A DNA stretch of 64,000 nt from Rufibacter sp. XAAS-G3-1 (GTDB taxonomy: Bacteria > Bacteroidota > Bacteroidia > Cytophagales > Hymenobacteraceae), in NCBI RefSeq assembly GCF_013623775.1, contig NZ_JABFAM010000017.1, positions 1 to 64,000 on the forward strand. The letters run 5' to 3'. A program made the position numbers and the translations under genes. This document shows positions 95 to 62,006 of the stretch, one piece after another (the stretch's first letter is position 1; the number at the start of each line of letters is the position of its first letter). The notes beneath the pieces are model-generated. The model was given only the letters and a program-made list of their open reading frames with translations. It was not told where the DNA came from and did no database searches.

Positions 95-130
95 GTTTTA
101 GCGCCATTTTCTGGAAACAAAGCTGAAATC
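95..130. repeat. P36 palindromic element, copy 1
   Basis: Imperfect 36-bp copy of the window-wide P36 element, whose consensus half-sites are GTTTTAGGCCTGTTTTCY and AGAAAACAGGCCTAAAAC. It runs from GTTTTAGCGC to GCTGAAATC and lies beyond the 3' end of the DUF2480 gene. Nothing else recognisable is seen in positions 1-306 apart from this and the terminator at 156-189. Confidence 0.6.
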
Positions 131-155
131 ATCCTTAGATTGAGTAAACCATACT

Positions 156-189
156 AAAAGAGACAAGATGATGCCACCTTGTCTCTTTT
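156..189 (-). terminator. Terminator hairpin after the DUF2480 gene
   Basis: Arms AAAAGAGACAAG and CTTGTCTCTTTT enclose a short loop. The A/T flanks make it usable in both directions. It would end the tsaB-DUF2480 transcript. Confidence 0.65.
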
Positions 190-306
190 ATCTTCATCAT
201 TACACGTATGCTGCCTTGGGCCTGCTTTTCTAAAAACAGTTCATTTTCCGCAATCGCATCTTGGCTGTAATTTAAGAATGCAGCCAGTTAAGCTAAAGCC
301 ATAGGG

Positions 307-831
307 TTAGACTGTGGCAACTTTGTCTTTCGGCTTTTTATAGATAGGAACCGTGGAGCATGGCTCGCCATACATGATACTGCTTACTACTGGTAGCAAC
401 TTCTGCATGATCTCTACATAGGCGTAGGTTGGCACGGGTATTTGCCCACAACCTTTAATCACCACTTTGGCATCTTGGTATTCCTCGGCATTGATTTCAG
501 CTATGGCATCTTGCAACAAGGCCTGCTCCAATGCATCCAAATCACCAAACACGTAGCGATTCACGAATGGCTGTAGCTTGCTTGCTAGCAACATATAGGC
601 CCAGGTAGGCACAATGGCATCTGTTGAGCAAATAATGGCTACGTTCTTTCCGGTGTATTGTGACCAGTCATGGTCTTTGACAAAGGCTCGGAAATCTTTC
701 TCGCGTAGCATCAGCCCGTGGAACAGATTATCTTTTATATCATAGACTACCCGTTCACCGGAGTGCAAGTACTCTTCTAAGTTCAGTGTAATGAGGCCGC
801 TGTTGGCTACCCGGTTTACAAACTCTTCCAT
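307..831 (-). CDS. DUF2480 family protein
   Basis: This 174-residue cytosolic protein has no signal peptide or membrane segment. It matches the remembered pattern of the DUF2480 family of Bacteroidota, with an N-terminal MEEFVNRVANSGL and a central NVAIICSTDAIVPTWAYML stretch. The family has no established biochemical role. The start ATG lies two bases after the tsaB stop, so the two genes are almost certainly co-transcribed and probably translationally coupled. A hairpin terminator follows at 156-189. The family call is fairly confident; the function is unknown. Confidence 0.8.
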   Translation of the reverse strand: MEEFVNRVANSGLITLNLEEYLHSGERVVYDIKDNLFHGLMLREKDFRAFVKDHDWSQYTGKNVAIICSTDAIVPTWAYMLLASKLQPFVNRYVFGDLDALEQALLQDAIAEINAEEYQDAKVVIKGCGQIPVPTYAYVEIMQKLLPVVSSIMYGEPCSTVPIYKKPKDKVATV

Positions 832-833
832 CT

Positions 834-1523
834 TTACTTCCCTGAGGGTTTGGTGATATATACTTCTTTTAAATAGAAGGGCTCATAATAAGCCACATCT
901 TCAAATTCTCCTGCTTGCAGCTTTGGCCATGCTAATACGCCAATGGCTTTGGCTGTAGGATTAACATTGTTTAGGTAAAAAGCGTTCGGGTGAGGAACCA
1001 GAAGTTCCTGGGCTTTGGTGGCACCGCTCCCGAAGAAGATTATGGGCTGTTTTTCCAATTCCAGGGCAAAACTGGAAGCTTCCAAAATCATCGGCTCCAC
1101 GGGTCTTTGTTCCCCCAGGTCATGCGTCAGGAGGCACGTGTACACTTCTGAGCGGCGGGCATCTAACATGGGGCAGAACAAGTAACGTTCTGGAGCAGGC
1201 GTAACAGCAATAACTTGTTGTGCCATGGAGGCAAGCGTACTTACCGAAATCAAAGGTTTGTCCAGAGAGAAACACAAACCTTTGGCTGTTCCCGAACCAA
1301 TGCGAAGACCTGTATAGGATCCGGGACCTCCTGAAACCGCCACGGCATCTAACTGCTCCAACTTCACGCCCGCATATTCCAGCACTTGCCGTACCATCAC
1401 GGTGATGTGGGAGGAATGGGATTTCTCCATCTGCAGTTCTGCATAAGAAAGCAGCTGTTGGTCTTGGTGCAAGGCCACTGAACAGACCGAGGAGGAAGTT
1501 TCTAAAGATAAAATATACGCCAT
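834..1523 (-). CDS. tsaB: tRNA threonylcarbamoyladenosine biosynthesis protein TsaB
   Basis: TsaB is the non-catalytic ASKHA-fold partner of TsaD in making N6-threonylcarbamoyladenosine at A37 of ANN-decoding tRNAs. The 229-residue product opens with MAYILSLETSSSVCSVAL and carries the diagnostic AVSGGPGSYTGLRIG segment near residues 70-85, followed by KGLCFSLDKPLISVSTL. I chose the start at 1523, because the ten extra upstream residues are not part of the family and the protein begins correctly at MAYILSLETS. The protein lacks the metal-binding histidines of TsaD, as expected for TsaB. It is coupled to the downstream DUF2480 gene and separated from the upstream protease by a terminator. Confidence 0.93.
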   Translation of the reverse strand: MAYILSLETSSSVCSVALHQDQQLLSYAELQMEKSHSSHITVMVRQVLEYAGVKLEQLDAVAVSGGPGSYTGLRIGSGTAKGLCFSLDKPLISVSTLASMAQQVIAVTPAPERYLFCPMLDARRSEVYTCLLTHDLGEQRPVEPMILEASSFALELEKQPIIFFGSGATKAQELLVPHPNAFYLNNVNPTAKAIGVLAWPKLQAGEFEDVAYYEPFYLKEVYITKPSGK

Positions 1524-4070: not shown

Positions 4071-4106
4071 GTTTTAAGGCTCTTTTTTGAAAATCAGCCA
4101 CAATAC
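4071..4106. repeat. P36 element, copy 2
   Basis: A 36-bp copy, GTTTTAAGGC to CACAATAC, in the 397-base divergent region between rpmH and the M61 peptidase gene. The left half is close to consensus and the right half is decayed. Confidence 0.6.
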
Positions 4107-4236: not shown

Positions 4237-4272
4237 AATTTTGGCCTGCTTTCCTGAAAAGAGCCTCAAAAC
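4237..4272. repeat. P36 element, copy 3
   Basis: A 36-bp copy, AATTTTGGCC to CTCAAAAC, with the core CTTTCCTGAAAAG. It sits immediately upstream of a possible -7 box, TACCTTCG at 4277-4284, for the M61 gene. Confidence 0.65.
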
Positions 4273-6077: not shown

Positions 6078-6113
6078 CTTTTCGGCCTACTTTCTGAAAA
6101 ATGGGCTGAAAAC
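6078..6113. repeat. P36 element, copy 4
   Basis: A 36-bp copy, CTTTTCGGCC to GCTGAAAAC, just after the M61 stop. Its right edge lies 35 bases before the -7 box of the next gene. Confidence 0.7.
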
Positions 6114-7918: not shown

Positions 7919-7954
7919 GTTTTTGCCTCCCTTTCACTAAAACTCCCCTAAAAC
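7919..7954. repeat. P36 element, copy 5
   Basis: A 36-bp copy, GTTTTTGCCT to CCCCTAAAAC, in the divergent region between the membrane-protein gene and the STAS-like gene. Confidence 0.6.
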
Positions 7955-8406: not shown

Positions 8407-8416
8407 AAGTGTTCTA

Positions 8417-8526
8417 AGAGCTTGTTTAAATTTGAGGTTTGCCAGCGAAAATGATCAGAGAAAAAGGCGAACGCAGGTCCTTTTTATGGTCGTTTGCAGC
8501 GCAAAGATGAAATTTAAACATGCTTT
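8417..8526. repeat. L162 long inverted repeat, short form
   Basis: A 110-nt internally deleted copy of a long hairpin element that also occurs at 22339-22500 and 27155-27316. The terminal arms are AGAGCTTGTTTAAATTT and AAATTTAAACATGCTTT. It keeps the conserved inner blocks GGCGAACGCAGGTCC and GGTCGTTTGCAGCGCAAAG but lacks the central GTAGC-AGC-GCTAC hairpin. Confidence 0.85.
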
Positions 8527-8532
8527 AAGCAT

Positions 8533-8591: not shown

Positions 8592-8627
8592 GTTTTAGGG
8601 CAGATTTCAGGAAAACAGCCTTAAAAT
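8592..8627. repeat. P36 element, copy 6
   Basis: A 36-bp copy, GTTTTAGGGC to CCTTAAAAT, ending four bases before the stop codon of the PfkB gene. Confidence 0.65.
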
Positions 8628-9764: not shown

Positions 9765-9839
9765 GGTGATCGATGGGGTTCGAACCCACGACTTCCAGAA
9801 TCACAATCTGGTGCTCTAACCAGCTGAACTACGACCACC
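9765..9839 (-). tRNA. tRNA-His (GTG anticodon)
   Basis: The minus strand folds as a complete cloverleaf. The acceptor arms are GTGGTCG and CGATCAC with discriminator C. The anticodon arm CCAGA-TTGTGAT-TCTGG gives anticodon GTG, and the T arm includes GGTTCGAACCC. The base before the acceptor stem is G, giving the G(-1) typical of tRNA-His when paired with the discriminator C. CCA is not encoded. It stands alone with its own terminator. Confidence 0.96.
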
Positions 9840-12569: not shown

Positions 12570-12605
12570 GTTTTCTGCCTCTTTTCCCAAAAACGGCCCA
12601 ATAAC
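12570..12605. repeat. P36 element, copy 7
   Basis: A 36-bp copy, GTTTTCTGCC to CCCAATAAC, between the AT-rich island and the helicase gene. Its right edge is 40 bases before the helicase -7 box. Confidence 0.6.
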
Positions 12606-14141: not shown

Positions 14142-14177
14142 CTTTTAGCCTTACTTTTCTAAAAACACCCTTAAAAC
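14142..14177. repeat. P36 element, copy 8
   Basis: A 36-bp copy, CTTTTAGCCT to CCTTAAAAC, whose last bases form the start of the helicase terminator stem. Confidence 0.6.
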
Positions 14178-16842: not shown

Positions 16843-16878
16843 GTTTTTGCCCTACTTTTTCAAAAGCAGGCAAAAAAC
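16843..16878. repeat. P36 element, copy 9
   Basis: A 36-bp copy, GTTTTTGCCC to GGCAAAAAAC, about 110 bases upstream of the RemB/Wzi-like gene. Confidence 0.6.
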
Positions 16879-16987: not shown

Positions 16988-18682
16988 ATGAGAAAAACAT
17001 ACCGTCTGCTGTTGGGTCTATTTTTTCTGGCGGGTTCAGCAACGGCGCAGGATGCCACCGTGCCGCTGAACCCAGATGTGTACCGCGTCATTGACCGTTA
17101 CCATATCAAGCACAACACCGAAGACCTGCATACGTCTTTCCGGCCGTACGGCCGCGCGCGGGTTGCTAGGCTGGCCGAGGAAGCCCGCCAACATACCGCC
17201 TCCGGCTCCCCCACTGACGAGTACAACATCAATTACCTGCTCAACGACAACTGGAACTACACCCGTGACTCCCGCAACAATGCGACGCAACGGTCTTTAG
17301 GCCCGTTTTTCAAAAACAAGACCGATCTCTACCACTATGAAAGCGAAGACTTCACCCTGCGCGTGAACCCGGTCATAGGGCTGCAGGCGGGCAAAGACAC
17401 AGAGACCGACGGTTTGCGCTACATTAACACCCGCGGGCTACAGGTGGAAGGCACCATTGACAAAAAACTGGGTTTTTACACTTTTCTAGCTGATAACCAG
17501 GCAAAACTGCCGGGGTACGTGAACGAGCGGGTGTCGCGGGACAACATTGTGCCGCATGAAGCTTATTGGAAAACCTTCGGGAATGGGGGCGGTTATGACT
17601 TTTTCTCGGCCAGAGGTTACATCAACTACGCGGCTACCAAGCACATCAGCGTGATGCTGGGCCATGACAGAAACTTCATAGGCAACGGGTACCGCTCCAT
17701 GATTCTGTCTGATTACTCGGCCCCGTACTTCTTCCTGAAACTACAGACGCAAATCTGGAAACTACAGTACACCAACCTGTACGCCGAACTCACCCAAAAC
17801 TTTCAGCAGGCCGACCAACTCTACGACAAGAAGTACATGACGCTGCACCACCTCAGCGTGAACATTTTGCCTAACCTGAACGTGGGCGTGTTTGAATCGG
17901 TCATCTTCGGGCGGGACAGGGGCCGTTTTGAGTTGCAGTACCTGAATCCGGTAATTTTCTACCGAAGTGTGGAGCAAGGCCTGGGCTCTGAAGACAACGC
18001 CCTGCTGGGGATGGATTTCAAGTGGAATATCTACAACCGCGTGCAGCTCTACGGGCAAGCCGTACTGGATGAATTCCTGATTAGTGAACTGCGGGCCGGC
18101 AACGGTTGGTGGGGAAACAAATTCGGCCTGCAAGGCGGAGCCAAGTACATGGATGCCTTCGGGGTTTCTAACCTTGATTTACAGGGAGAACTGAATGTGG
18201 CCCGCCCCTACACGTACCAGCACGAAGACCAGTCCAAGAACTACCAGCACTATTTGCAGCCGCTGGCGCACCCCATGGGCGCGAACTTTGCCGAGGCCGT
18301 CGCCATTGTGCGGTACCAGCCTTTGCCTAAGCTAACCCTTACCGCCAAAGCCATTGCCACCCGTTACGGCCAAGACCCGTTCCCTACCGTTGACCCGCTA
18401 GACCCAGAAGGCGGCCTCATGGAATACAACTACGGCGGCAATGTCTTGAAGCCCTACACCACCCGCCCCGGCGACTACGGCTTTGAGATTGGAAGCGGCG
18501 TCACCACAGACCAGTTCTACGGCGAAGCCACCGCCTCTTTCCAGTTGATGTACAACATGTTCCTGGACGTGACCCAGGTAGTGCGCCGCGCCAACGCGAA
18601 TGACAGCCGTTTTGACCGAAACACCTCCTTTTCGGCGGTGTCTTTCCGGTGGAACATTCCGCAGCGTACGCACGCGTTTTAG
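16988..18682 (+). CDS. RemB/Wzi-like outer-membrane barrel protein
   Basis: A 564-residue secreted protein with a signal peptide (MRKTYRLLLGLFFLAGSATA, cleaved before QDATV). The rest is rich in aromatic beta strands and ends in a barrel-like strand with TSFSAVSFRWNIPQ. It resembles the capsule-assembly Wzi family and the gliding-motility protein RemB, which share this fold. Diagnostic-looking parts are GHDRNFIGNGYRSMILSD and a mid-section RFELQYLNPVIFYRSVEQG. I chose the ATG at 16988 because it starts the signal peptide; the upstream 64 codons are intergenic repeats. It probably acts in surface polysaccharide retention or motility. Confidence 0.8.
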   Translation: MRKTYRLLLGLFFLAGSATAQDATVPLNPDVYRVIDRYHIKHNTEDLHTSFRPYGRARVARLAEEARQHTASGSPTDEYNINYLLNDNWNYTRDSRNNATQRSLGPFFKNKTDLYHYESEDFTLRVNPVIGLQAGKDTETDGLRYINTRGLQVEGTIDKKLGFYTFLADNQAKLPGYVNERVSRDNIVPHEAYWKTFGNGGGYDFFSARGYINYAATKHISVMLGHDRNFIGNGYRSMILSDYSAPYFFLKLQTQIWKLQYTNLYAELTQNFQQADQLYDKKYMTLHHLSVNILPNLNVGVFESVIFGRDRGRFELQYLNPVIFYRSVEQGLGSEDNALLGMDFKWNIYNRVQLYGQAVLDEFLISELRAGNGWWGNKFGLQGGAKYMDAFGVSNLDLQGELNVARPYTYQHEDQSKNYQHYLQPLAHPMGANFAEAVAIVRYQPLPKLTLTAKAIATRYGQDPFPTVDPLDPEGGLMEYNYGGNVLKPYTTRPGDYGFEIGSGVTTDQFYGEATASFQLMYNMFLDVTQVVRRANANDSRFDRNTSFSAVSFRWNIPQRTHAF

Positions 18683-18690
18683 AGACTCCT

Positions 18691-18826
18691 CCCTCGCTCG
18701 CCTCCCTCGCTCGCCTCCCTCGCTCGCCTCCGGCGAGTGTGACTTACTTGCAGCCTCTGGCTGCGTGAGAGATAGGCAGACTTTACCCGACCACAGGCAG
18801 CTCACACTCGCCAGAGGCGAGCGAGG
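18691..18826. repeat. 13-nt tandem repeat running into an inverted repeat
   Basis: Three exact copies of CCCTCGCTCGCCT occupy 18691-18729. The last copy begins the left arm of a near-perfect inverted repeat of about 25 bp, 18718-18742 with 18802-18826 (right arm ending GAGGCGAGCGAGG). The 60-base interior contains the smaller hairpin GCAGCC-TCT-GGCTGC. Confidence 0.8.
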
Positions 18827-18840
18827 ATAAACTCATTCAC

Positions 18841-18866
18841 AGGGGCAACCACCAGGGGTTGCCCCT
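18841..18866. repeat. Palindrome AGGGGCAACC...GGTTGCCCCT
   Basis: A 26-bp dyad around ACCAGG. The same GGCAACCACCAGGG core recurs in the inverted repeat at 41402-41467. Confidence 0.75.
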
Positions 18867-18882
18867 CCAATAAAGGAGGGCG

Positions 18883-18918
18883 GTTTTAGGCCTATTTTCC
18901 AGAAAACAGGCCTAAAAC
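18883..18918. repeat. P36 element, copy 10 (near-perfect)
   Basis: Almost exact consensus: GTTTTAGGCCTATTTTCC joined to AGAAAACAGGCCTAAAAC, with flanking GC and GC also pairing. Its right edge is 41 bases before the -7 box of the ABC exporter. Confidence 0.85.
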
Positions 18919-18940
18919 CGCGCCTTCACACCACATGCGG

Positions 18941-18978
18941 TTTCATTCCTGCAAAGCCGTACCTTTGCAGGAATGAAA
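18941..18978. promoter_or_regulatory. Operator-like 16-bp perfect dyad over promoter and start codon
   Basis: TTTCATTCCTGCAAAG, a 6-base spacer CCGTAC, then CTTTGCAGGAATGAAA form a perfect inverted repeat. The -7 box TACCTTTG (18960-18967) spans spacer and right arm. The ATG of the ABC exporter (18973) lies inside the right arm. A repressor bound here would block initiation; alternatively, the RNA would hide the start codon. Confidence 0.75.
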
Positions 18979-20835: not shown

Positions 20836-20871
20836 GTTTTACGCCTGTTTTGACAAAAGCAGGCGTAAAAC
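20836..20871. repeat. P36 element, copy 11 (perfect arms)
   Basis: GTTTTACGCCTG pairs exactly with CAGGCGTAAAAC, and flanking GCC/GGC also pairs. Relative to consensus, G has changed to C in the left arm with the matching C to G in the right arm. It is just after the ABC exporter stop. Positions 20872-21074 hold only repeat-like GGAGGGG sequence and no gene. Confidence 0.85.
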
Positions 20872-21074: not shown

Positions 21075-21110
21075 GATTTGAGGCTGTTTTCTGGAAAACA
21101 GACCTGAAAC
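21075..21110. repeat. P36 element, copy 12
   Basis: A 36-bp copy, GATTTGAGGC to GACCTGAAAC, with the core TGTTTTCTGGAAAACA. It lies about 90 bases upstream of the gene at 21204. Confidence 0.7.
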
Positions 21111-22301: not shown

Positions 22302-22338
22302 TTCTTCCTTTCAAAGAAGAAGCTAACCTGAACTGTTT

Positions 22339-22500
22339 AGAGCTTGCTGGGATTTCACCTTCGCTAGCGAAAACGACTAGAGAAAGGTTCTGCGGAAGCG
22401 TTTTTTGAGTTTCATAGCAGCGCTATGGGACAAAAAAAAGGTGAACGCAGGTTCTTTTTAGGGTCGTTTGCAGCGCAAAGATGAAATCCCAGCAAGCTCT
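22339..22500. repeat. L162 long inverted repeat, full copy
   Basis: A 162-nt imperfect hairpin. Terminal arms are AGAGCTTGCTGGGATTTCA and TGAAATCCCAGCAAGCTCT; compared with the other copies both arms changed together. The apex is CATAGC-AGC-GCTATG, again a compensated version of CGTAGC-AGC-GCTACG in the third copy. Inner stem blocks include GGTTCTGCGGAAGCG and GGTGAACGCAGGTTC. It lies alone between gmhA and yifB. Confidence 0.9.
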
Positions 22501-22577
22501 TACAGCCAAGGAATTTATTTACGTCAAGCTCTGTTGGCTCACTCAAGATAAGTTCAACTACGTATCTGAATAATTCT

Positions 22578-24435: not shown

Positions 24436-25050
24436 ATGAAAAAAATTTTACTAGTTGTTGCCGCATTATTTATCACCTACTTTTCCCAAGCCCAAGGCAT
24501 TAAGCTAGGGTTGAAAGCGGGAGGAAACTACAGCAACGTTACGGGTGATGAAACAGAAGACCTTGAGTCTTTGTTCGGACTTCATGCTGGTGTCATCTTA
24601 GACTATGGTATTTCTGAGATGGTCTCCATTCGTCCAGAATTACTTTATTCTATGAAAGGGGCAAAACTAGAAATTAGTGATGCTGACGACGCTATTATAA
24701 AAAGCAGGTTTCATTATTTAGATGTTCCAATTCTCGCCCACATCAATGCTGGGGGCCTTTTCTTTGAGCTTGGGCCCACTGTCGGTTTCAAATTATCTTC
24801 TTCTACCACTATAGAAGTTGATGGTGAAGAGATAGATGAAGAAGAGTTTGGCATAAGCGATGGAGATGATGGGATGAAGAATTTTGAGATTGGGTACGCG
24901 GCAGGCTTAGGGTACCAACTTCCAATGGGAGTTGGCATTGGTTTACGGTACCAAGGCGGGATATCCAGCATAAATGAGAATGACGATGATCCTAAACAAC
25001 GCAACTCCGTTTTCCAACTATCATTAAGCTATATGTTTGGAGGCAGATAA
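24436..25050 (+). CDS. Outer-membrane beta-barrel protein 1 of 5 (PF13568-like)
   Basis: A 204-residue secreted small barrel. The signal peptide is MKKILLVVAALFITYFSQAQ. Next comes the family's first strand GIKLGLKAGGNYSNVTG, the landmark MVSIRPELLYSMKGAK and the turn GYAAGLGYQLP. The last strand is SVFQLSLSYMFGGR, ending in an aromatic strand as outer-membrane barrels do. The putative loops are very acidic (DETEDLES, DGEEIDEEEF, ENDDDPK). Subgroup with copies 2 and 3. Function unknown; it may be a structural or adhesive porin-fold protein. Confidence 0.85.
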   Translation: MKKILLVVAALFITYFSQAQGIKLGLKAGGNYSNVTGDETEDLESLFGLHAGVILDYGISEMVSIRPELLYSMKGAKLEISDADDAIIKSRFHYLDVPILAHINAGGLFFELGPTVGFKLSSSTTIEVDGEEIDEEEFGISDGDDGMKNFEIGYAAGLGYQLPMGVGIGLRYQGGISSINENDDDPKQRNSVFQLSLSYMFGGR

Positions 25051-25061
25051 CTCAATTACAT

Positions 25062-25089
25062 AAAAAAGGCCTGCTAGCAGGCCTTTTTT
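25062..25089 (+). terminator. Terminator of barrel gene 1
   Basis: AAAAAAGGCCTGCTAGCAGGCCTTTTTT, read as arms AAAAAAGGCCTGCT and AGCAGGCCTTTTTT. Confidence 0.9.
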
Positions 25090-25139
25090 ATGCCTTTTCG
25101 TGTAGTACCAACTAGTATTTACCTACTTCCCTTGGTTTC

Positions 25140-25165
25140 CTGGCGCAAACGTCCGCTTGCGCCAG
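25140..25165. repeat. CTGGCGC-type hairpin
   Basis: CTGGCGCAA and TTGCGCCAG enclose an 8-base spacer. The same termini bound the element at 51619-51823, and a decayed version is at 55632-55657. Confidence 0.8.
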
Positions 25166-25260
25166 AATTCATGTAGCCAGTAATAAAGCTTTATGTGATT
25201 GGGGATAAGTAGCCGCTTAGGGTTCACCGTCTAGGAGAACGGATGAGTAAGTTAATTTCC

Positions 25261-25296
25261 TGTTTAAAGCCCACTTTCCCTAAAACTGCCCCAAAC
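25261..25296. repeat. P36 element, copy 13
   Basis: A 36-bp copy, TGTTTAAAGC to CCCAAAC, in the 416-base gap between barrel genes 1 and 2. Confidence 0.5.
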
Positions 25297-25466
25297 AACC
25301 CTACTTCGGCCGCAGTGCCTACTAATTTCTCAACAAGGGCATAGGGGTAAACGGCAACACATGTGTCTGGAAAAGAACAGCAGCGGTATTAGGCATCTTT
25401 AGCTAGCCTCTTCCATGCAGCTTTCAGCCTGTGAAACAATTTAACCTATACTTATCTTTCTTAACC

Positions 25467-26168: not shown

Positions 26169-26180
26169 TCATCTTGCTTA

Positions 26181-26226
26181 ACCGCCCAAAAGAAGGTCTC
26201 TTAGGGGCCTTCTTTTGGGCGGTTTT
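26181..26226 (+). terminator. Terminator of barrel gene 2
   Basis: ACCGCCCAAAAGAAGG pairs with CCTTCTTTTGGGCGGT and is followed by TTT. Confidence 0.9.
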
Positions 26227-26462
26227 AATTCTGGCACATTTCTGTGAGTCGTTAATTTTTCCAACATTTACCTCTTCGCAAAAAGTCTAACGCTATCAGC
26301 AAACCATCAAAAATCATAATTTATTTAGAGCCTGAAAATCAATATATTATCATTAAAAACCTATAAACAACAAAATACGAAGTATTTAACTTAAGACAAT
26401 TCAGAAAAACTCACTAACTAGCATTACATTTATAATTCTATACCACCCTTTATCCCTATTTT

Positions 26463-27050: not shown

Positions 27051-27068
27051 GCTATTTTCCATCCACAG

Positions 27069-27095
27069 AAAGGGGCTGCTAACAGCCCCTTTTTT
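27069..27095 (+). terminator. Terminator of barrel gene 3
   Basis: AAAGGGGCTG and CAGCCCCTTT around CTAA, followed by a T-run. Confidence 0.9.
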
Positions 27096-27101
27096 TATGC
27101 C

Positions 27102-27126
27102 GTTTTCCCAGAACTCAGCTTAAAAC
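27102..27126. repeat. Truncated P36 element
   Basis: GTTTTCCCAGAACTCAGCTTAAAAC is split here as GTTTTCCCAGAA and CTCAGCTTAAAAC; 25 bp, with the left inner arm deleted. Confidence 0.4.
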
Positions 27127-27329: not shown

Positions 27330-27365
27330 ATTTTAAAGGTCTTTTTCAGAAAACAGGCCCAAAAT
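27330..27365. repeat. P36 element, copy 14
   Basis: A 36-bp copy, ATTTTAAAGG to GGCCCAAAAT, with an exact right inner arm CAGAAAACAGGCC. No gene is seen in 27366-27620. Confidence 0.65.
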
Positions 27366-28347: not shown

Positions 28348-28356
28348 GTCATCTCA

Positions 28357-29269: not shown

Positions 29270-29305
29270 GTTTTAAGCCTGTTTCCCGTAAAACAGCTTC
29301 AAAAC
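29270..29305. repeat. P36 element, copy 16
   Basis: A 36-bp copy, GTTTTAAGCC to CTTCAAAAC, between the convergent barrel gene 5 and dipeptidase gene. Confidence 0.7.
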
Positions 29306-30869: not shown

Positions 30870-30905
30870 GTTTTCAATGTGTTTTCCAGAAAACAGCTTT
30901 AAAGT
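30870..30905. repeat. P36 element, copy 17
   Basis: A 36-bp copy, GTTTTCAATG to GCTTTAAAGT, with an exact core TGTTTTCCAGAAAACA. It is in the 685-base divergent/convergent gap 30736-31420, which otherwise holds only palindromes. Confidence 0.7.
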
Positions 30906-31322: not shown

Positions 31323-31358
31323 GTTTATGGCCTCCTTTTCTGAAAACAAGCGATAATC
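31323..31358. repeat. P36 element, decayed copy 18
   Basis: GTTTATGGCCTCCTTTTCTG is recognisable; the right arm is lost after GAAAACAAGC. Low-quality match 63 bases past the plsY stop. Confidence 0.35.
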
Positions 31359-32189: not shown

Positions 32190-32237
32190 CATCCCGTTTT
32201 AAAGCCGATTTGGTGAAATCTGCCTTAAAACGGGATG
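32190..32237. repeat. P36 element, copy 19, with paired flanks
   Basis: The 36-bp core (32196-32231) runs GTTTTAAAGC to CCTTAAAAC. Its locus-specific flanks CATCCC and GGGATG also pair, extending the dyad to 48 bp. Confidence 0.85.
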
Positions 32238-37376: not shown

Positions 37377-37412
37377 GTTTAAAGGCTGTTTTTCCGAAAT
37401 ATGGCAGAAACC
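37377..37412. repeat. P36-like sequence overlapping the prmA stop
   Basis: GTTTAAAGGC to GCAGAAACC, 36 bp. It includes the prmA stop codon and encodes about its last ten residues. The match to P36 is moderate. Confidence 0.4.
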
Positions 37413-38215
37413 CAGTTGTTTTTGTTTCTGGACGATTCAAAGGTCAGGTCTAGTTCAGAGGCCCTCTCCTGCAGAATGGGAAGGTCTTCGGTATAAAAAC
37501 CGCTTAATACCAGTGGGTTGCCGGGCTGCAACAGTTGGCTGTACACGGGCATGTCTTCCAGCAGCACGTTGCGGTTGATGTTGGCCAGAATCAGATCAAA
37601 GGAAGCCTCGCCCTGCAGCACAGCGGCATCGCCCAGGCGCACTTCTAAGGTAGAACAGTGGTTGCGCTCGGCGTTCTCGCGGGCGTTTTCTACCGTCCAG
37701 TCTTCAATGTCTACCGCTAACACCTCGCGGGCGCCCAGTTGCTCGGCCATGATGGCCAGGATACCGGTGCCGCAACCCATGTCCAACACCCGCTTTCGGC
37801 TGTGGTCTAGGGTGAGCTGGTTCTCAATCATGAGCGTGGTGGTCTCATGGTGCCCCGTCCCGAAGGACATTTTAGGGGTAATCACAATGTCATAGGCAAT
37901 GCCTTCGGGCTTGGGGTGGAAATCGGCCCGCACCGATACTTTCTCGGCAATGAGCAAGGACTCAAAGTTCTTTTCCCACTCCTCGTTCCAGTTCTGCTTG
38001 GCAATGCTGCGGGTCTGGTACGGGAACTCGCCGGCAAACTGGTAACGCTCCAGTACTTCCTGCAGGGCTCCCTCAGAAAATCTATCTTCCTCAATGTATC
38101 CCTGAAACCCTTCCTCGGTGTCCTGGAAGGTATCAAAGCCTAATTCCCCCAGTTCTGCGATCAAGATTTCTGAGTACTCTGGCGAGGCGGTAACGGTTAC
38201 TTCAATAAAACTCAT
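37379..38215 (-). CDS. prmA: Ribosomal protein L11 methyltransferase
   Basis: A 278-residue SAM-dependent enzyme that trimethylates ribosomal protein L11. The SAM site is VLDMGCGTGILAIMAEQLGA (about 142-161) followed by VLAVDIEDW; FGTGHHETT precedes it and DLILANINRNVLLEDM is the N(I)N-type catalytic motif. The N-terminal substrate-recognition region (MSFIEVTVTASPEYSEILIA) is present. Complete. The large unknown gene follows closely and may share its transcript. Confidence 0.95.
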   Translation of the reverse strand: MSFIEVTVTASPEYSEILIAELGELGFDTFQDTEEGFQGYIEEDRFSEGALQEVLERYQFAGEFPYQTRSIAKQNWNEEWEKNFESLLIAEKVSVRADFHPKPEGIAYDIVITPKMSFGTGHHETTTLMIENQLTLDHSRKRVLDMGCGTGILAIMAEQLGAREVLAVDIEDWTVENARENAERNHCSTLEVRLGDAAVLQGEASFDLILANINRNVLLEDMPVYSQLLQPGNPLVLSGFYTEDLPILQERASELDLTFESSRNKNNWVSAIFRKNSL

Positions 38216-38291: not shown

Positions 38292-38327
38292 GTTTTAGAC
38301 TTATTTCTAGAAAAGGAGGCAAAAAAC
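38292..38327. repeat. P36 element, copy 20
   Basis: A 36-bp copy, GTTTTAGACT to GGCAAAAAAC, 76 bases upstream of prmA. Confidence 0.6.
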
Positions 38328-38386: not shown

Positions 38387-38422
38387 ATTTAGGGCCTGTT
38401 TTTCACAAAACAGGCCCTAAAT
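38387..38422. repeat. P36 element, copy 21 (perfect arms, shifted ends)
   Basis: ATTTAGGGCCTG pairs exactly with CAGGCCCTAAAT around TTTTTCACAAAA. A half-copy, AGGCCCTAAA, precedes it at about 38374. It lies between tpiA and prmA. Confidence 0.85.
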
Positions 38423-39289: not shown

Positions 39290-39325
39290 GTTTTTAGGTT
39301 CTTTTTCTGAAAATAGGTCAATAAC
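39290..39325. repeat. P36 element, copy 22
   Basis: A 36-bp copy, GTTTTTAGGT to GTCAATAAC, 44 bases upstream of tpiA. Confidence 0.55.
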
Positions 39326-41477: not shown

Positions 41478-41510
41478 AGACCTGTGAGGTTTTCAAAACC
41501 TCACAGGTCT
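41478..41510. repeat. 33-bp palindrome family, copy 3
   Basis: AGACCTGTGAGGTTTT, one C, then AAAACCTCACAGGTCT: perfect 16-bp arms. Confidence 0.9.
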
Positions 41511-41522: not shown

Positions 41523-41558
41523 GTTTAAGAGCTAGTTTCTCAAAATCAGCCACTAAAC
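41523..41558. repeat. P36 element, copy 23
   Basis: A 36-bp copy, GTTTAAGAGC to GCCACTAAAC, ending four bases before the uvrA stop. Confidence 0.6.
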
Positions 41559-44510: not shown

Positions 44511-44546
44511 GTTTTAGACCTACTTTCTGAAAAACAGGCCTTAAAC
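44511..44546. repeat. P36 element, copy 24
   Basis: GTTTTAGACCTACTTTCT joined to GAAAAACAGGCCTTAAAC; close to consensus, with two uncompensated mismatches. Confidence 0.75.
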
Positions 44547-44841: not shown

Positions 44842-44877
44842 AGTTTAATACCGATTTTCAAAAAACAGCCTGAAAAC
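44842..44877. repeat. P36 element, copy 25
   Basis: A 36-bp copy, AGTTTAATAC to CCTGAAAAC, immediately past the THX terminator. Confidence 0.5.
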
Positions 44878-45010: not shown

Positions 45011-45046
45011 CATTTAAGGCCTGTTTTCTTTAAATGGCCCCTAAAC
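45011..45046. repeat. P36 element, copy 26
   Basis: A 36-bp copy, CATTTAAGGC to CCCCTAAAC, with left inner arm CCTGTTTTCTTT. It is in the gap before the small efflux-associated gene. Confidence 0.6.
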
Positions 45047-45162
45047 CAAAAACATCTTACCTATGCCTACGTTTGGCAAGCCGAAGAAGGGCTTCCGCCA
45101 AGGAGGCTATCCAGAAAATGCCTGTTTGCCATAAACAATTACCAAAACCCAGTTGGGCTGCC

Positions 45163-45714: not shown

Positions 45715-45750
45715 GTTTCAAGGCTCTTTTCTCTAAAACAGCCCCTAAAC
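45715..45750. repeat. P36 element, copy 27
   Basis: A 36-bp copy, GTTTCAAGGC to CCCCTAAAC, with core TTTTCTCTAAAA, upstream of the CusA-TolC gene. Nothing else is recognisable in 45574-45939 besides an AAAGGAGGT at about 45905. Confidence 0.6.
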
Positions 45751-50318: not shown

Positions 50319-51479
50319 ATGAAAGCATCTTTCTATACCTATTCCCTCGCCCTGGCGCTATTCTCTCTGTTTTCAGCGTGTTCTGAGAAAAAAGCCCCTG
50401 AAACGGCAGCTGCCCCCACTCCCCAATCGGTGCCCGCCGAGGGCGTGCTCACGCTAACCCCGCAGCAGATACAGAACGCCGGCATTGAACTGGGCGGGGC
50501 TTCTCAGCAGCAACTCGGTAGCACCCTTCAGCTTTCCGGCGAAATTGATGTACCACCTACCAGCATGGTGAGCGTATCTGTGCCGTACGGGGGCTTCGTG
50601 AAGACCCTGAACCTACTGCCGGGCCAGCACGTGAACAAAGGGCAGGTACTGGCCACCCTTCAGCACCAGGACTACGTGCAACTGCAACAAGATTACCTGG
50701 ATGCCCGCGCCCGCCTGCAACTGGCCAACCTGGAACTGCAGCGCCAGCAGGAGCTGACCCAGGAGAAAGTGGGCGCCCTCAAGAACCTGCAGCAGATCAG
50801 GACGGAGCGCGAAGTCTTGCTGAACAGCCTGGCCGCCCTCAAAGAAAAACTGCTCATGATCAACATCAACCCGGCGCGTTTGCAGAACGGCAAGATCAAC
50901 CGCACCATCAGCGTGCTCTCGCCTATCAATGGTTTCGTGAAGAACACCATGGCCAACGTAGGCAAGATGGTGAACCCCTCAGATGTGCTTTTTGAGTTGG
51001 TGAACACCGATGACCTGCACCTGAAACTGAATGCCTTCGAGAAAGACGTGCCGTACCTGCAGAAGGGCCAATCCCTCACCTACACCCTCGCCAATGACCC
51101 CACACCCCGCACCGCCAAGATCCTGCTGGTAGGCCACAGCGTGGAAGGCGACAAGACCATTCCCGTTCACGCCCACCTGGCCCACGCCGATGAGCACGAA
51201 CTCCTGCCTGGCATGTACGTTACGGCCACCATCCAAACCAAAGCCAGAACGGTCACCTCTTTACCAGAGAGCGCCCTGGTGCAGTTTGAGGGGGCCTCGT
51301 ATGTTTTTGTAGCCAACGGCAACCGTCAATTCAAACGCGTAGAAGTGCCCACCGGCCTCAAGGGAAATGGCTTTGTGGAAGTAGAACTGCCGGCTGCGCT
51401 GCAAACCTCTACTCAGATTGCCGTGAAAGGAGCCCATAACCTATTGGCCATGCAGGAAAATGTCGGCGAAGAAGAATAA
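50319..51479 (+). CDS. Periplasmic adaptor subunit of the RND metal pump (CusB/CzcB-like)
   Basis: A 386-residue membrane-fusion lipoprotein with lipobox LFSAC (Cys21). A lipoyl/barrel region (VSVPYGGFVKTLNLLPGQHV, about 85-105) is followed by a helical hairpin (about 115-180). The second half of the lipoyl domain (SPINGFVKNTMANVGKMV) and a C-terminal beta-barrel come next. It would bridge the RND pump to the outer-membrane channel. The stop of the fusion gene is two bases upstream, so the genes form one operon. P36-like sequence overlaps codons 17-29. Confidence 0.92.
   Translation: MKASFYTYSLALALFSLFSACSEKKAPETAAAPTPQSVPAEGVLTLTPQQIQNAGIELGGASQQQLGSTLQLSGEIDVPPTSMVSVSVPYGGFVKTLNLLPGQHVNKGQVLATLQHQDYVQLQQDYLDARARLQLANLELQRQQELTQEKVGALKNLQQIRTEREVLLNSLAALKEKLLMININPARLQNGKINRTISVLSPINGFVKNTMANVGKMVNPSDVLFELVNTDDLHLKLNAFEKDVPYLQKGQSLTYTLANDPTPRTAKILLVGHSVEGDKTIPVHAHLAHADEHELLPGMYVTATIQTKARTVTSLPESALVQFEGASYVFVANGNRQFKRVEVPTGLKGNGFVEVELPAALQTSTQIAVKGAHNLLAMQENVGEEE
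50369..50404. repeat. P36-like sequence inside the adaptor gene
   Basis: GTTTTCAGCGTGTTCTGA then GAAAAAAGCCCCTGAAAC, 36 bp. By eye about two thirds of positions match consensus. It encodes the end of the lipobox and the start of the linker. Confidence 0.35.
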
Positions 51480-51532: not shown

Positions 51533-51568
51533 GTTTGAAGCCTGTTTCCAGAAAAGGAGGCATAAAAC
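51533..51568. repeat. P36 element, copy 28
   Basis: A 36-bp copy, GTTTGAAGCC to GGCATAAAAC, after the adaptor gene and next to a GGAGAAGGGCCGGGGAGG-type palindrome (51484-51526). Confidence 0.6.
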
Positions 51569-51872: not shown

Positions 51873-51944
51873 AATAGCCAGCAACTCCCCGTTTTAGGCC
51901 TCTTTCTATAAAAAAAGGCCTAAAACAGGGAGTTGCTGGCTATT
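51873..51944. repeat. P36 element, copy 29, inside a 72-bp palindrome
   Basis: The core 51891-51926 is near-perfect (GTTTTAGGCCTCTTTCTA and TAAAAAAAGGCCTAAAAC). Its flanks AATAGCCAGCAACTCCC and GGGAGTTGCTGGCTATT also pair exactly, probably forming a terminator for the MFS gene. Confidence 0.9.
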
Positions 51945-53915: not shown

Positions 53916-53951
53916 GTTTTCAAGCTGTTTTTACCAAATCTACTTGAAAAC
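53916..53951. repeat. P36 element, copy 30
   Basis: A 36-bp copy, GTTTTCAAGC to CTTGAAAAC; outer arms GTTTTCAAG and CTTGAAAAC pair exactly although both differ from consensus. Positions 53952-54155 hold nothing else recognisable. Confidence 0.75.
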
Positions 53952-55677: not shown

Positions 55678-55713
55678 GTTTCGGGCCTGTTTACCCGCAA
55701 ACAGGCCCGAAAC
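55678..55713. repeat. P36 element, copy 31 (perfect arms)
   Basis: GTTTCGGGCCTGTTT pairs exactly with AAACAGGCCCGAAAC. Relative to consensus, TA has become CG on the left and the matching change is present on the right: a clear compensatory pair. Confidence 0.9.
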
Positions 55714-55751: not shown

Positions 55752-58043
55752 TCACTGGGCTTTGTAACTGCTTTTGATGGTTTGGTTGTACTTGCGGTAC
55801 ATCTCCTGGGCAACGGGCACAGAACTGCCCGCTGTTTTGTCTGGGTATGCCTCAGAGCTGTTTACCCATTGCCATTCCCAGTTCTTTATCTTTTCATCAA
55901 ACACTTTCTGGTTTATTTCCTGGCCTTTCGCCATTTGGGCGGTGACATAGTCAAAGTACTGCTGCCAGCGCTTTTTGTAGTAGCCGTTCAGCAACCCAGA
56001 CCACTGCCGGTTGGCGTACTCCCGCAGTTTGCTGTCTTTGTCGCCCCAGAGGGTGATGAGGTTGCGGGCATTCATTTCGTAGAGCTTTTTCTCGTCACTG
56101 GTGGTGCCCCAGCTTTTAGCAGAGTTCAACCACCGGCCCAGCAGAAAATCTTCTTGGGTAGCCAGCAGTCTGTCCATGTCTTCTATCAACGAGATGAACT
56201 CGGCGCTGTGCTTTTTGAAGGCGGCCAGGTCTTTTTTCTGGTAGTCCTGCGCAAACTGCTGTTGTACCTGGGTCGCGTAATTTGCCAGCACCTGACGGGT
56301 CAAGTCTACGATATCGAATTGATACCCTTCACTGGCTTGGAGGTCATTAGAAGCGGCCATCAGGTTGTCCCAGGCATTCACCAGTTCCAGCGGCTCGTAG
56401 GTGAAATTGGTGGTGACACCCCCGGTGTTTCGGCTGAAGGTTGGCCTACCGGCCACTATGGATTCTGGCCCTCCGGAAGTAACGCTGTCGGCGTAGACGG
56501 TGCGCCGCAGAATCTCCAAGGCCTTGTTGGCGGCGGCGTTTTCCTTCCCGTAGCGGCGTCTGGTGTAGCCCTGCAGCCAAGACGTGAGTTCGATGGGCGT
56601 GTCGCGCCAGGCGTTCTCCATCATGAGCTCGTACATGACCGGATTCTGCTCAATGGCCTCGGGTGTTAAGCCGATGCCGGTCAGTTTCCCTTTTTGGGCA
56701 TGATGAAGCGCTTTGGCCGGTTCTGTGGCTACCCTGTCCATGAGGCCATACATGTTCACGTTGCCGCCAAAATTGTGCAGCATGTTCCAGATCCAGGGTT
56801 TTCCGTAGTAGGCCTCGGTTTTCTGCCACATGGGGTTTTTCTCGCTCCAGAGATCCAGGATGATCATCTTGTCATCTGGCACGGCGTTGAGCATGGCCTG
56901 AATCTGGGGTGTTTTCCAGAAATCACGGCTAAAGTGAAACAGCCAGCCCTGCATGATCCAGGTGGCCTTGGGGTCGGCGGCGGCCATGGACTGGTACACT
57001 TTCTGGCTGATGTTGTTGAGGAAAGTAGAGTCGCTGGAAGGAGGCCGGTTCTCGTTGAAGGTATCTGAGGTGTACAAATGATCGGTGCCGAAGGCCTTGA
57101 TTTCCTCCTCAATGAATTTCTTGCCTATCTCCACAAACATTGGGTCATCGGGGTCCAACAGAAAGACATCGGGGAACATCTCATCCCAATTGGTTTTCTT
57201 CAGGTTGGCCTGCGGGAACTTGTCTTTGAAGGCCGGGGGCACGTGGCCGGTGAAAGCGGGCAAGATGGGCGTCATGCCCAGTCCCCGTTCCCTTTCCAGA
57301 ATCTGTTTTTGCAGGGCCTCGTGGCTGTCCATCCAGGAGACTGGAAGGGGGCCTCCCCAGGCATCCAGGTTCCCCATCCAGAACCACGCGAAATAGGCGG
57401 GGCCGCTGAAGAAGCTCTCCAGGTCTTTGTCTGTGAGGCCCATGCTTTTGTAGACCCGCCGGTGGATGGCGTTCTGGCCCGTGAGCGCCAGCGGCATGTT
57501 GATCCCGTTCATGGCCATCCAGTCAATCTCCCACTGCCAACGCTCCCAATCCCACCAGCTCATGGTGTAGTTGAAGGTGCAGTAGTTCAGGTAATAGCGG
57601 TACTTGTAAGGGCTTACATTCCTTACTTTCTGCGGCACCGCCGGAAGCTGCTGGGGGAGGTTGAGGTTGCTGCCGTTCCAGGTGATGCTGCTGTGGGTGT
57701 AGTATTTGAGGTAATGGTTGAGGGCACTGGCAATGGAGACGCCGTTGTTGCCGCGCAAGATGATTTTGCCGTTGCTGCTTTCCACCTCAAACACATCTTT
57801 GCCTTCCTCCTGCGGGATGAATTCGGCCACAAAATGAGATGCGTGCGTGGGTACCACCCGTTTGATAAGGTCATACACCGGTTTGGTGCTGGCATCAGTA
57901 TTGAGCGTCGCGGAGGTTTTGGAAGCGGCTTCAGAAGAGGTGTTACTGCTGGTATTCTTCCGGGCACAGGCCGAGGAGAACAGGATCAATAGCAGTACTA
58001 TTGATCTTGCCCCCTGCATTTTATAGCTTCGTTTTAACTTCAT
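55752..58043 (-). CDS. Alpha-N-acetylglucosaminidase, GH89 (copy 1), lipoprotein
   Basis: A 763-residue secreted enzyme of family GH89, which removes alpha-linked N-acetylglucosamine. A lipoprotein signal ends in LFSSAC. Family segments seen are NYCTFNYTMSWWDWERWQWE, MALTGQNAIHRRVY-like wording (LALTGQNAIHRRVYKSMG), FWMGNLDAWGGPLP, and TSDTFNENRPPSS, which holds a likely catalytic glutamate. Length is normal. ATG at 58019 is an alternative start. It follows copy 2 by 54 bases, so the two form an operon; they are only moderately similar. Confidence 0.92.
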   Translation of the reverse strand: MKLKRSYKMQGARSIVLLLILFSSACARKNTSSNTSSEAASKTSATLNTDASTKPVYDLIKRVVPTHASHFVAEFIPQEEGKDVFEVESSNGKIILRGNNGVSIASALNHYLKYYTHSSITWNGSNLNLPQQLPAVPQKVRNVSPYKYRYYLNYCTFNYTMSWWDWERWQWEIDWMAMNGINMPLALTGQNAIHRRVYKSMGLTDKDLESFFSGPAYFAWFWMGNLDAWGGPLPVSWMDSHEALQKQILERERGLGMTPILPAFTGHVPPAFKDKFPQANLKKTNWDEMFPDVFLLDPDDPMFVEIGKKFIEEEIKAFGTDHLYTSDTFNENRPPSSDSTFLNNISQKVYQSMAAADPKATWIMQGWLFHFSRDFWKTPQIQAMLNAVPDDKMIILDLWSEKNPMWQKTEAYYGKPWIWNMLHNFGGNVNMYGLMDRVATEPAKALHHAQKGKLTGIGLTPEAIEQNPVMYELMMENAWRDTPIELTSWLQGYTRRRYGKENAAANKALEILRRTVYADSVTSGGPESIVAGRPTFSRNTGGVTTNFTYEPLELVNAWDNLMAASNDLQASEGYQFDIVDLTRQVLANYATQVQQQFAQDYQKKDLAAFKKHSAEFISLIEDMDRLLATQEDFLLGRWLNSAKSWGTTSDEKKLYEMNARNLITLWGDKDSKLREYANRQWSGLLNGYYKKRWQQYFDYVTAQMAKGQEINQKVFDEKIKNWEWQWVNSSEAYPDKTAGSSVPVAQEMYRKYNQTIKSSYKAQ

Positions 58044-58097
58044 TTTAAGAAAATTAGGGCAGAAACACCTCTTGGATACACAGAAGAGGTTTTGGCC

Positions 58098-60296: not shown

Positions 60297-60429
60297 GAGC
60301 TAGGATTTTCTTAAAACGGGTTATAATCGGGTATCAGGCTTATGTTCACCGGTTGTATGGCAGATGCACCTACCGGCAAATGGCCTGCGGCAATCTTGTT
60401 CAGGCTTTTGATTTAGAAGGAATTTTCAA

Positions 60430-60475
60430 CTTCTGTTTTGGCACCATTTTCACAAAAACAGGCGTAAAACAGAAG
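60430..60475. repeat. P36 element, copy 32, with paired flanks
   Basis: The core 60435-60470 runs GTTTTGGCAC to GGCGTAAAAC. The locus-specific flanks CTTCT and AGAAG also pair. It lies between the ROK gene and GH89 copy 2. Confidence 0.75.
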
Positions 60476-60499
60476 AATAGCTTATGTAGGGTAGTAGCT

Positions 60500-61756
60500 C
60501 TAATCATTGTTCTCTACATCAAGTACTCCTTCAAAGATGTTTTCCATGACCACCGCCACCGGCCCCATGATATCAGCCTCCAGCCCTAGGGTTGACAGTA
60601 CAATCTCTGTTCTCTCCCTTAGCTGAGACATGCAGTACTGATTGATGGATTGTTGAATGGGGGTGGTGATGTATTGTTTGGCCTCGGCCATGCGCCCGCC
60701 CAGGATGATGAGCTCAGGATTAAGCAACTGAATCAAAATAGAGATGCCTTTTCCCAGACTGATGCCCATTTCAGAGAGAATATTGATCGCGAACTGGTCG
60801 CCCAGGTTAGCGGCATCAATCACCAATTGGGGATTTATTTTCTCTATGTTCCCCCCAGAAAGTTCATTTAAGAGGGAGTACTGCCCCGACTGGATGCCCT
60901 CTTTGGCCATACGGGTTAAAGCAATTCCAGAGGCTACCGTCTCCAGGCAGCCACATTTGCCGCAATAACAAAGCGCGCCGTCATTCACCAGCGGAATATG
61001 CCCTATCTCTCCGGCAAAGCCCGTGAAACCGCTGTTCAATTTGCCATCGGTGAGAATACCCAGACCAATTCCCCAGTCCAGCTTCACTACCAGCACATTT
61101 TTCCGGCCTTGGGCCAGGCCGAACCGGTATTCAGCCAAGGCGATGCTTTTGACATCGTTCTGGATGTACACGGGCTTATTGAATTTGTTAGACAAAAGCT
61201 TTTGCAACGACTCTGCCCCCGCCGGAGGAAGTAAATAAGAGTGATTACTGCCTTCTTTGGCGTCTACCAACCCCGGCATGCTAAGGCCAATGCCCAGTAG
61301 CTTTTCCCTATCTATTCCGGAGGCGGAAATCAGGTCTTCGGCATATTCATACAGTTGCTCCAGAATGTTAATGTCTTTTGAAATCTGCACCGGGAAGACA
61401 TGGGTACGGGTAATATTGTTGTTGTTGTTGTCAAAGATGGCCATTCTGGTTTTAAACCGGCCCAGGGCAATGCTTAAGACAAAAAGCGAATTGTCACGCA
61501 GCCCGTACAAATCTGGCTTTCTTCCGCCCTCAGACTTGCCTTGCCCCTGTTTCTCCACCAGTCCTTCCACTATAAGTTCTTTCAGCAACCCCATAGAGGT
61601 GGGGGAACTGATACGAAAGTCACTGCACAGCTCTGAATTGGTTTTAGGCCCCTGCACATACAATTCCCTGATAATCTTTAGTTTCTGATTGTATTTCTTT
61701 TTCTCAATAGTATTAAGGGTATCTAAATAGGCATCTACTTGAATTAAGGTACTCAT
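60500..61756 (-). CDS. ROK family transcriptional regulator (NagC/Mlc-like)
   Basis: A 418-residue repressor-type protein. A winged-helix domain occupies about residues 18-80 (RELYVQGPKTNSELCSDFRI). The ROK sugar-binding domain follows, with the signature GEIGHIPLVNDGALCYCGKC (about 250-270) and the zinc motif CGKCGCLE. It is oriented into the GH89 operon and probably responds to N-acetylglucosamine or a related sugar, as NagC does. The repressor target is not proven. Confidence 0.9.
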   Translation of the reverse strand: MSTLIQVDAYLDTLNTIEKKKYNQKLKIIRELYVQGPKTNSELCSDFRISSPTSMGLLKELIVEGLVEKQGQGKSEGGRKPDLYGLRDNSLFVLSIALGRFKTRMAIFDNNNNNITRTHVFPVQISKDINILEQLYEYAEDLISASGIDREKLLGIGLSMPGLVDAKEGSNHSYLLPPAGAESLQKLLSNKFNKPVYIQNDVKSIALAEYRFGLAQGRKNVLVVKLDWGIGLGILTDGKLNSGFTGFAGEIGHIPLVNDGALCYCGKCGCLETVASGIALTRMAKEGIQSGQYSLLNELSGGNIEKINPQLVIDAANLGDQFAINILSEMGISLGKGISILIQLLNPELIILGGRMAEAKQYITTPIQQSINQYCMSQLRERTEIVLSTLGLEADIMGPVAVVMENIFEGVLDVENND

Positions 61757-61970
61757 ATCTTTTTGTCAATGATTACTACACAAATAACAGTTTTTTTTCG
61801 GAATCTTCAAGCACTTATGCTATTTTTTTATAAAAGTACCATTCCGCTCGTTTATCTCTTTCCTCAATCAATAGCTTGTATGCCCATCTGAATCAATTTA
61901 CCCCCTACATCCTCCTGTGTAGCAGAAGCGCTTTCAGGAGTATTTCCTAAGAGAGGTAATGATAAGTTCT

Positions 61971-62006
61971 GTTTTTGGCCTGCTTTTACAAAAACAGCCG
62001 GTTTTC
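61971..62006. repeat. P36 element, decayed copy 33
   Basis: GTTTTTGGCCTGCTTTTACA and AAAACAGCCGG are recognisable; the terminal AAAAC is lost. It is in the 310-base gap between GntP and ROK, where no gene is seen. Confidence 0.45.

Follow-up and report, generated by a model that had tools for sequence, protein, structure and literature searches.

The window analyzed here is a 64,000-nucleotide stretch of Rufibacter sp. XAAS-G3-1 (contig NZ_JABFAM010000017.1, positions 1 to 64,000), and the gaps between its genes carry many copies of P36, a 36-bp intergenic element of two-fold symmetry. The genes include one for a DEAD-box helicase and one for a tRNA (9765-9838), the latter being the only match of the Rfam covariance models in the window at their gathering threshold; none of them matched P36, and searches of the open-licence papers of PubMed Central (PMC) listed no description of the element. 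P36 is a symmetric, nearly additive, fixed-spacing and position-conserved dyad, confined to Rufibacter as far as the genus and its relatives were sampled, and is probably the binding site of a putative architectural or boundary protein.

The copies of the window were called with a symmetric position weight matrix (PWM) and are listed in Table 1. They number 35 at a score of at least 25, the maximum in a first-order Markov background (5 x 64 kb) being 15.8. The original prediction, made from the window alone, had counted about 34 copies and singled out six good ones (at 18883, 20836, 38387, 44511, 51891 and 55678), all of which were recovered at those positions. A larger sample of the same genome (G000) comprises the window and 20 hand-picked 20-kb stretches from across the contigs, 464 kb in total, and the site counts given below refer to it unless stated. 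A refined matrix identified 270 sites at a score of at least 20 (0.58 per kb), from which about 3,000 copies are extrapolated for the genome. There is no continuum of scores into the background: 288 sites were obtained at a threshold of 12, 262 at 22 and 251 at 25, whereas intergenic sequence simulated with a second-order Markov model gave 2, 0 and 0. A strict pattern of 24 fixed letters, allowing up to 3 mismatches, matched 1,265 times per strand in the whole assembly (5,296,800 bases), and the same pattern read backwards matched nowhere in it.

The length of 36 bp had been reported from ungapped alignments, which are biased toward one length. The half-site was therefore also scanned for alone (18 bp, threshold 10, no length assumed). 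Convergent half-sites were spaced by 18 bp in 228 cases, by 17 bp in 7 and by 19 bp in 8, with only 6 cases in total at any other spacing up to 60 bp, so that the length is real and the predicted selection on geometry is supported. The half-site reads GTTTYnRGSCTRTTTTYn. The TT steps at columns 3-4 and 14-15 and their mirrors are conserved in 97-100% of sites, forming tracts 11 bp (about one helical turn) apart, while columns 6, 7, 9, 12, 17 and 18 are free or degenerate. The consensus proposed earlier was too exact at these six columns.

The columns of the dyad are nearly independent of each other. In G000, mutual information between columns is at most 0.12 bits, both inside a half-site and from one to the other, in keeping with an additive binding motif; it reaches 0.48 at some columns in the congeners G048 (50 sites) and G022 (65 sites), where small samples inflate such values. 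Column 9 is C in 0.49 and G in 0.44 of 260 sites, and its mirror, column 28, is C in 0.46 and G in 0.49; the two form matched pairs in 117 sites against 115.7 expected (z=0.2). The pairs of columns 11-17 gave z between -0.8 and 0.6, as is found for independent arms. The most telling comparison separated pairing by place, into 96 stop-proximal sites and 124 sites with no stop codon in the surrounding 70 nt, leaving aside the 31 of the 251 sites found in genes or at stretch edges. At the non-stop sites the pairs of columns 7-13 numbered 487 against 492.6 expected, whereas at the stop-proximal sites they numbered 436 against 396.8, with pairs 5-32, 6-31 and 9-28 at z 3.5-4.0 (3.5 for 9-28) and the flanking pairs 0 to -4 at z 2.3-4.7 (4.7 for pair -2). 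Stop-proximal sites with 15-17 of 17 pairs number 28 of 96, against an expectation of about 5.7. Most P36 copies thus do not behave as hairpins, since their inner arms fail to covary away from gene 3' ends, and roughly a quarter of the stop-proximal copies keep their pairing and double as 3'-end hairpins. The stems of the latter often extend outward, and in at least one example a T-run lies past the extended stem; the 12 nt directly after the 28 hairpin-forming copies have a T fraction of 0.29, against 0.22 after 52 others.

The 251 sites are located in tandem gaps (140), convergent gaps (53), divergent gaps (27), stretch edges (16) and called genes (15). Genes were called with our own script, which assigned 75% of the bases to coding sequence and missed some genes, so that the numbers for gaps are approximations and some of those classed as divergent may be mis-called. 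With this reservation, a site was present in 129 of 208 gaps of at least 150 bp (28 of 37 convergent, 20 of 39 divergent and 81 of 132 tandem) and, at a score of at least 20, in 26 of the 34 window gaps of at least 80 bp. Placement between separate transcription units, as originally proposed, is thereby borne out, and most gaps do carry a site, but the wording that nearly every gap has one was too strong. The proposed absence from tight gene pairs held throughout: none of 61 tandem gaps shorter than 40 nt contains P36. Within tandem gaps, 93 of 140 sites are closer to the upstream stop than to the downstream start, and the density falls from 7.4 to 5.5 and 4.6 per kb over the three 20-nt bins directly past a stop codon, lying at 0.8-3.6 per kb from there to 600 nt. 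A separate predicted intrinsic terminator lies within 30 bp of 31 of 249 sites, compared with 97 of 2,700 random non-coding positions, and in those cases P36 itself need not be the terminator. Distances of 800-3200 bp between neighboring sites are commoner than in random placement (0.44 against 0.30), but the random model let sites overlap and a regular chromosomal spacing is not claimed.

The 15 in-gene copies use all three reading frames, and two of them share one long gene (L056). Three overlap the stop codon of their gene; the others may be real sites in coding DNA. The lowest density was found in the stretch L046 (G000:C1:1-20000), which contains one site in 20 kb where the other 19 stretches contain 6-19. 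This stretch carries genes for a phage integrase, a BT4734-like primase, an IS110-type transposase and a HigB-type protein, and is the sole one of its kind seen.

Outside the window's genome, the strict pattern was counted in 60 genomes of the family. All 14 Rufibacter genomes contain 117-1,413 matches per strand, whereas two of the other 46 genomes contain a single match each and 44 contain none. Across the order (291 genomes of 115 genera, up to 2 mismatches), more than one match was found only in the four Rufibacter genomes sampled, and five genomes from outside the genus had one match each. In a scan of named genomes, all the matches listed (80 of at least 96) belonged to Rufibacter, which does not exclude other taxa, and a viral collection gave an exact match in one contig. 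A de novo search for spaced words also had P36 words as its leading signal in each of the five Rufibacter species sampled. The same search in 398 kb from 14 genomes of five other genera of the family identified nothing comparable, the P36 matrix found 0 sites there, and the candidate idea of analogous but different dyads in those genera was rejected, the spaced words having yielded none. The scan of Hymenobacteraceae suggested in the original prediction thus revealed an abundant element in one genus and not a family-wide one.

Within Rufibacter the sites keep their places. Gene order around one ABC-transporter gene is shared by 16 genomes, and in all 16 a site starts 87-91 bp upstream of the coding sequence (CDS), in gaps of 151-915 bp, with a conserved, promoter-like TAnnTTTG box between the site and the gene. 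The divergent gap upstream of this gene has a site in 15 of the 16 genomes, while a nearby tandem gap (68-175 bp) lacks one in 15 of the 16. Across 11 congeners, the orthologues of 22 site-bearing window gaps also had a site in 137 of 171 comparisons, and those of 8 window gaps that lack one despite a length of at least 80 bp had it in 16 of 51; five site-bearing window gaps had no orthologous gap to compare. Over 138 orthologous copies, identity is 91% in the tract columns, 51% in the degenerate columns and 45% in ungapped flanks. The first figure is inflated, as each copy was required to score at least 15, but that filter does not bear in the same way on whether and where the sites occur. 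Because positions and tracts are conserved while the rest drifts, the sites look old, stay put and appear to be selected for a contact pattern. Species also have dialects: columns 12/13 are C 0.99/A 0.71 in G048 and G 0.66/T 0.75 in G000, column 6 is T in 92% of the G022 half-sites, and the G048 form occupies places orthologous to the sites of other species. Among 66 C-to-G or G-to-C switches between orthologues at columns 9/28, counted per column, the partner was unchanged in 35 and 12 were of other kinds. At three loci (the copies at 20836, 32196 and 38387) the orthologues mostly keep long palindromes through compensatory changes.

Table 1. Copies of P36 in the window, with their scores under the symmetric PWM.
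Positions	PWM score	Remarks
95..130	29.7	
4071..4106	36.1	
4237..4272	37.3	
6078..6113	33.4	
7919..7954	28.1	
8592..8627	39.3	convergent gap
12570..12605	35.3	divergent gap before DEAD-box helicase gene; at least one site in orthologous gaps
14142..14177	32.6	convergent gap; position conserved
16843..16878	36.1	divergent gap; site in 15/16 Rufibacter genomes
18883..18918	46.9	near-consensus; start 87-91 bp upstream of CDS in 16/16 genomes
20836..20871	37.8	hairpin-forming, compensatory changes; 31-37 nt past last aligned codon in 10/16 genomes
21075..21110	38.6	
25262..25297	27.3	
27330..27365	36.9	
29270..29305	39.5	convergent gap
30870..30905	31.0	
31323..31358	32.6	
32196..32231	32.0	inside longer conserved hairpin, flanked by CATCCC...GGGATG in most relatives shown
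37377..37412	30.4	overlaps 3' end of gene 37379-38215
38292..38327	33.0	position conserved
38387..38422	36.5	hairpin-forming; position conserved; G048 shows species dialect
39290..39325	35.4	position conserved
41523..41558	31.9	position conserved
44511..44546	42.1	divergent gap
44842..44877	29.5	
45012..45047	30.1	
45715..45750	36.6	
50369..50404	27.5	within 5' part of reading frame 50319-51479
51533..51568	34.0	convergent gap
51891..51926	40.8	in long near-perfect hairpin (15/17 core pairs, pairing 18 bp further out)
53916..53951	28.5	
55678..55713	28.8	hairpin-forming (16/17 pairs)
58031..58066	25.4	
60435..60470	35.3	
61971..62006	28.9	

Other repeats are present alongside P36. A second family of intergenic hairpins, ACCTGTGAGGT...ACCTCACAGGT, was identified at 29235-29263, 31144-31172 and 41480-41508, and an element resembling a miniature inverted-repeat transposable element (MITE), with ends near TAAGAGCTTGTTTAAATTTGAGGTTTGC, is common to 8415-8528, 22337-22502 and 27153-27318. 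The region 24436-29133 contains paralogous genes in a tandem array with partial repeats at the DNA level. A large inverted repeat, CTCGCTCGCCTC...GAGGCGAGCGAG, lies at about 18715-18830, and a similar one is found in a gap of G022. The G022 gap (L045) orthologous to window 18682-18973 carries a 418-bp insertion that includes an element with CCCCCTTTGAAGGGGGTAGGGGG ends; the sister genome G017 has one P36 there, and G022 has one to either side of the insertion. In several congeners (L031-L045), a repeated hairpin, GACCTCGTAGTGTCC...GGTCCTACGAGTGTCTT, stands between two P36 copies in the gap of genes 9919/12611. Finally, a strongly conserved block, AGGCAACC...GAGTACACG..CAAAATT, was identified upstream of 16988 in 16 species and is possibly an unusual promoter or regulatory element.

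The density peak in the first 60 nt past stop codons would be expected if P36 were a hairpin acting as RNA, either a terminator or a stabilizer of mRNA 3' ends of the repetitive extragenic palindromic (REP) type, with the non-pairing copies as decayed ones. The excess of well-paired stop-proximal sites, the compensatory changes at the three loci, the covariation of the window copies and the longer stems, with their T-run in at least one case, all agree with it. As an account of the whole element it is unlikely, because inner pairing has no signal at the 124 non-stop sites, 27 of 251 sites lie in divergent gaps, one place is fixed upstream of a promoter-like box, separate predicted terminators adjoin 31 sites and the T content directly after the hairpin-forming copies is 0.29. 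Bidirectional intrinsic terminators share with P36 the symmetry, the location between convergent genes and the hairpin subset near stops, but P36 has no pairing constraint away from stops and also occupies divergent gaps and a place upstream of a promoter-like box. The original prediction that it is not a plain terminator agrees with this. REP sequences and bacterial interspersed mosaic elements (BIMEs), with their REP-associated tyrosine transposases (RAYTs), are likewise short, palindromic, intergenic, of high copy number and enriched after stop codons; P36 differs in lacking inner pairing away from stops, in not tracking Y1_Tnp genes and in starting with GTTT instead of the GTAG/CGTC tags that the title of PMC3733652 gives. 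Matches to PF01797 (Y1_Tnp) were identified in 15 of 16 Rufibacter genomes, 1-6 in each (one in G000, at 28.8 bits), and in 11 of 13 genomes from outside the genus, but G017 has none despite its 1160 strict P36 sites. A REP/RAYT system was accordingly rejected for the bulk of the copies. What remains of the REP-like hairpin or RNA stability element offered in the original prediction is the subset just past stop codons, while its other option, a boundary or nucleoid-protein site, is supported.

An additive two-fold motif would also suit a CRP-like, ordinary global transcription factor with P36 as its operator at promoters, as would the fixed distance to one gene start in 16 of 16 genomes with its conserved TAnnTTTG box just downstream. 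Such boxes, at 20-70 bp from the site edge, point outward in 26 of 524 flanks and inward in 8, a mild excess. However, few sites have one, the outward boxes are spread over distances without sharp phasing, 53 of 251 sites lie in convergent gaps, and a usual regulon is far sparser than the roughly 0.6 sites per kb found across the genome. We regard this explanation as quite unlikely, and the variant of a fixed promoter-linked operator was rejected for want of sharp phasing. The restriction to one genus, the number of copies (about 3,000), the species dialects and the depletion in the integrated element of L046 recall a self-recognition watermark, spread by uptake-biased recombination. The DNA uptake sequences (DUS) of Neisseriaceae and the uptake signal sequences (USS) of Pasteurellaceae, words of roughly 10-12 bp, are similarly restricted to lineages, very high in copy number, divided into species dialects and depleted in acquired DNA. 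P36 has no uptake role known to us; it is a long degenerate dyad with near-additive columns, not a short exact word, and it is almost only intergenic, with 15 of 251 copies in called coding sequence, all of which makes a watermark very unlikely. Papers exist on DUS dialects and on the use of DUS to find integrative elements (PMC3630211 and PMC7371117). The HIP1 palindrome of cyanobacteria is, in the abstract-level description of PMC4390886, an 8-mer (GCGATCGC) linked to DNA methyltransferases and replaced by alternative HIPs in some species; as described there it resembles P36 in being lineage-specific and very abundant, whereas P36 is long, degenerate and intergenic. That P36 still spreads by copying, as a mobile or MITE-like repeat, is highly improbable. 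Its copy number is high, the closest copies within G048, G022, G012 and G000 are 0-1 mismatches apart, one closest pair of G012 has an identical left flank over all 10 bases shown, and a 418-bp insertion in G022 is flanked by P36 on each side. Against this, flank agreement goes no further than the first few of 10 bases in 14 of the 15 closest pairs (three from each of five genomes), positions are conserved across the genus and G017 lacks Y1_Tnp. Strong half-sites without a partner are also few: 54 in 464 kb lie farther than 40 bp from any site, where chance would give about 17 at that threshold, and the candidate of transposon ends was rejected, no such arrangement having been seen among them.

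The reading that we favor, with a probability of roughly 0.58, is that P36 is the two-fold symmetric binding site of a putative Rufibacter-specific architectural or boundary protein. P36 has the features of a protein-binding dyad: two symmetric half-sites, fixed spacing, columns that are independent with the exception of the outer ones, and positional conservation under purifying selection. One subunit, or one dimer, would recognize each half-site, reaching the RGSCY core through the major groove, and the two T tracts, which lie 11 bp from each other, would face the same side of the helix. The sites would be occupied by an abundant nucleoid-type protein, confined to Rufibacter and binding as a dimer or tetramer, which, more tentatively, may insulate neighboring transcription units or organize the chromosome. 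An architectural or boundary role is suggested because the sites lie between transcription units in every orientation, sometimes beside separate terminators or promoters, and because they are nearly missing from the only incoming element seen. The stop-proximal subset would additionally have been shaped into 3'-end hairpins, probably terminators or protectors of mRNA 3' ends. The sites of MatP (matS), Noc (NBS) and Fis are also dyads spread over the chromosome, but those known are either shorter and much rarer than P36 or of much lower specificity, and we know of no nucleoid-protein site that takes the form of a 36-bp dyad at the boundaries of transcription units with a density of one per 1.7 kb. 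Such sites are the nearest functional parallel, and the dialects of uptake sequences the nearest evolutionary one.

Several observations weigh against a protein site. The window copies taken into the covariation test (29 of 35, 6 being excluded) covary above shuffles, with a covariation score of 0.184 against 0.128 and 0 of 500 shuffles reaching the observed value. In the 260 copies, covariation at z 3.5-5.5 is seen for the outer pairs 1-36, 5-32 and 6-31 as well as for the three flanking pairs closest to the site, and weaker signals were found at 8-29 (z 2.3), 10-27 (1.6) and 7-30 (1.0). Even in the non-stop class, pairs 1-36, 6-31, 0-37 and -1-38 reach z 2.4-3.2, and 8 of the 124 sites have 16-17 pairs against 0.9 expected. 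Of the 66 switches at columns 9/28, 19 were compensated, although a double change may count twice. The density peak past stop codons also suits a terminator. The cognate protein was not found, the Y1_Tnp family being the only one searched and no systematic search having been made, and its restriction to the genus is assumed from that of the sites. The residual pairing signals presumably come from the hairpin-forming subset together with mis-called stops.

A further and tentative step, to which we give somewhat less than even odds, is that of a genus-specific boundary system, in which one dedicated DNA-binding protein would occupy about 3,000 36-bp dyads set between transcription units, its specificity and its sites drifting together between species, as a bacterial counterpart of insulators with dialects. 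A site so long, specific, dense, conserved in position and restricted to one genus is unlike the bacterial repeats and nucleoid-protein sites compared here. For Rufibacter, P36 density might help to spot acquired DNA. If a protein does occupy P36, the transcription-unit boundaries of the genus would be marked by one readable motif, the old question of bacterial insulators could be put to a direct test by deleting a single protein or a single site, and the dialects would make it possible to trace how a DNA-binding protein and its thousands of sites evolve together.

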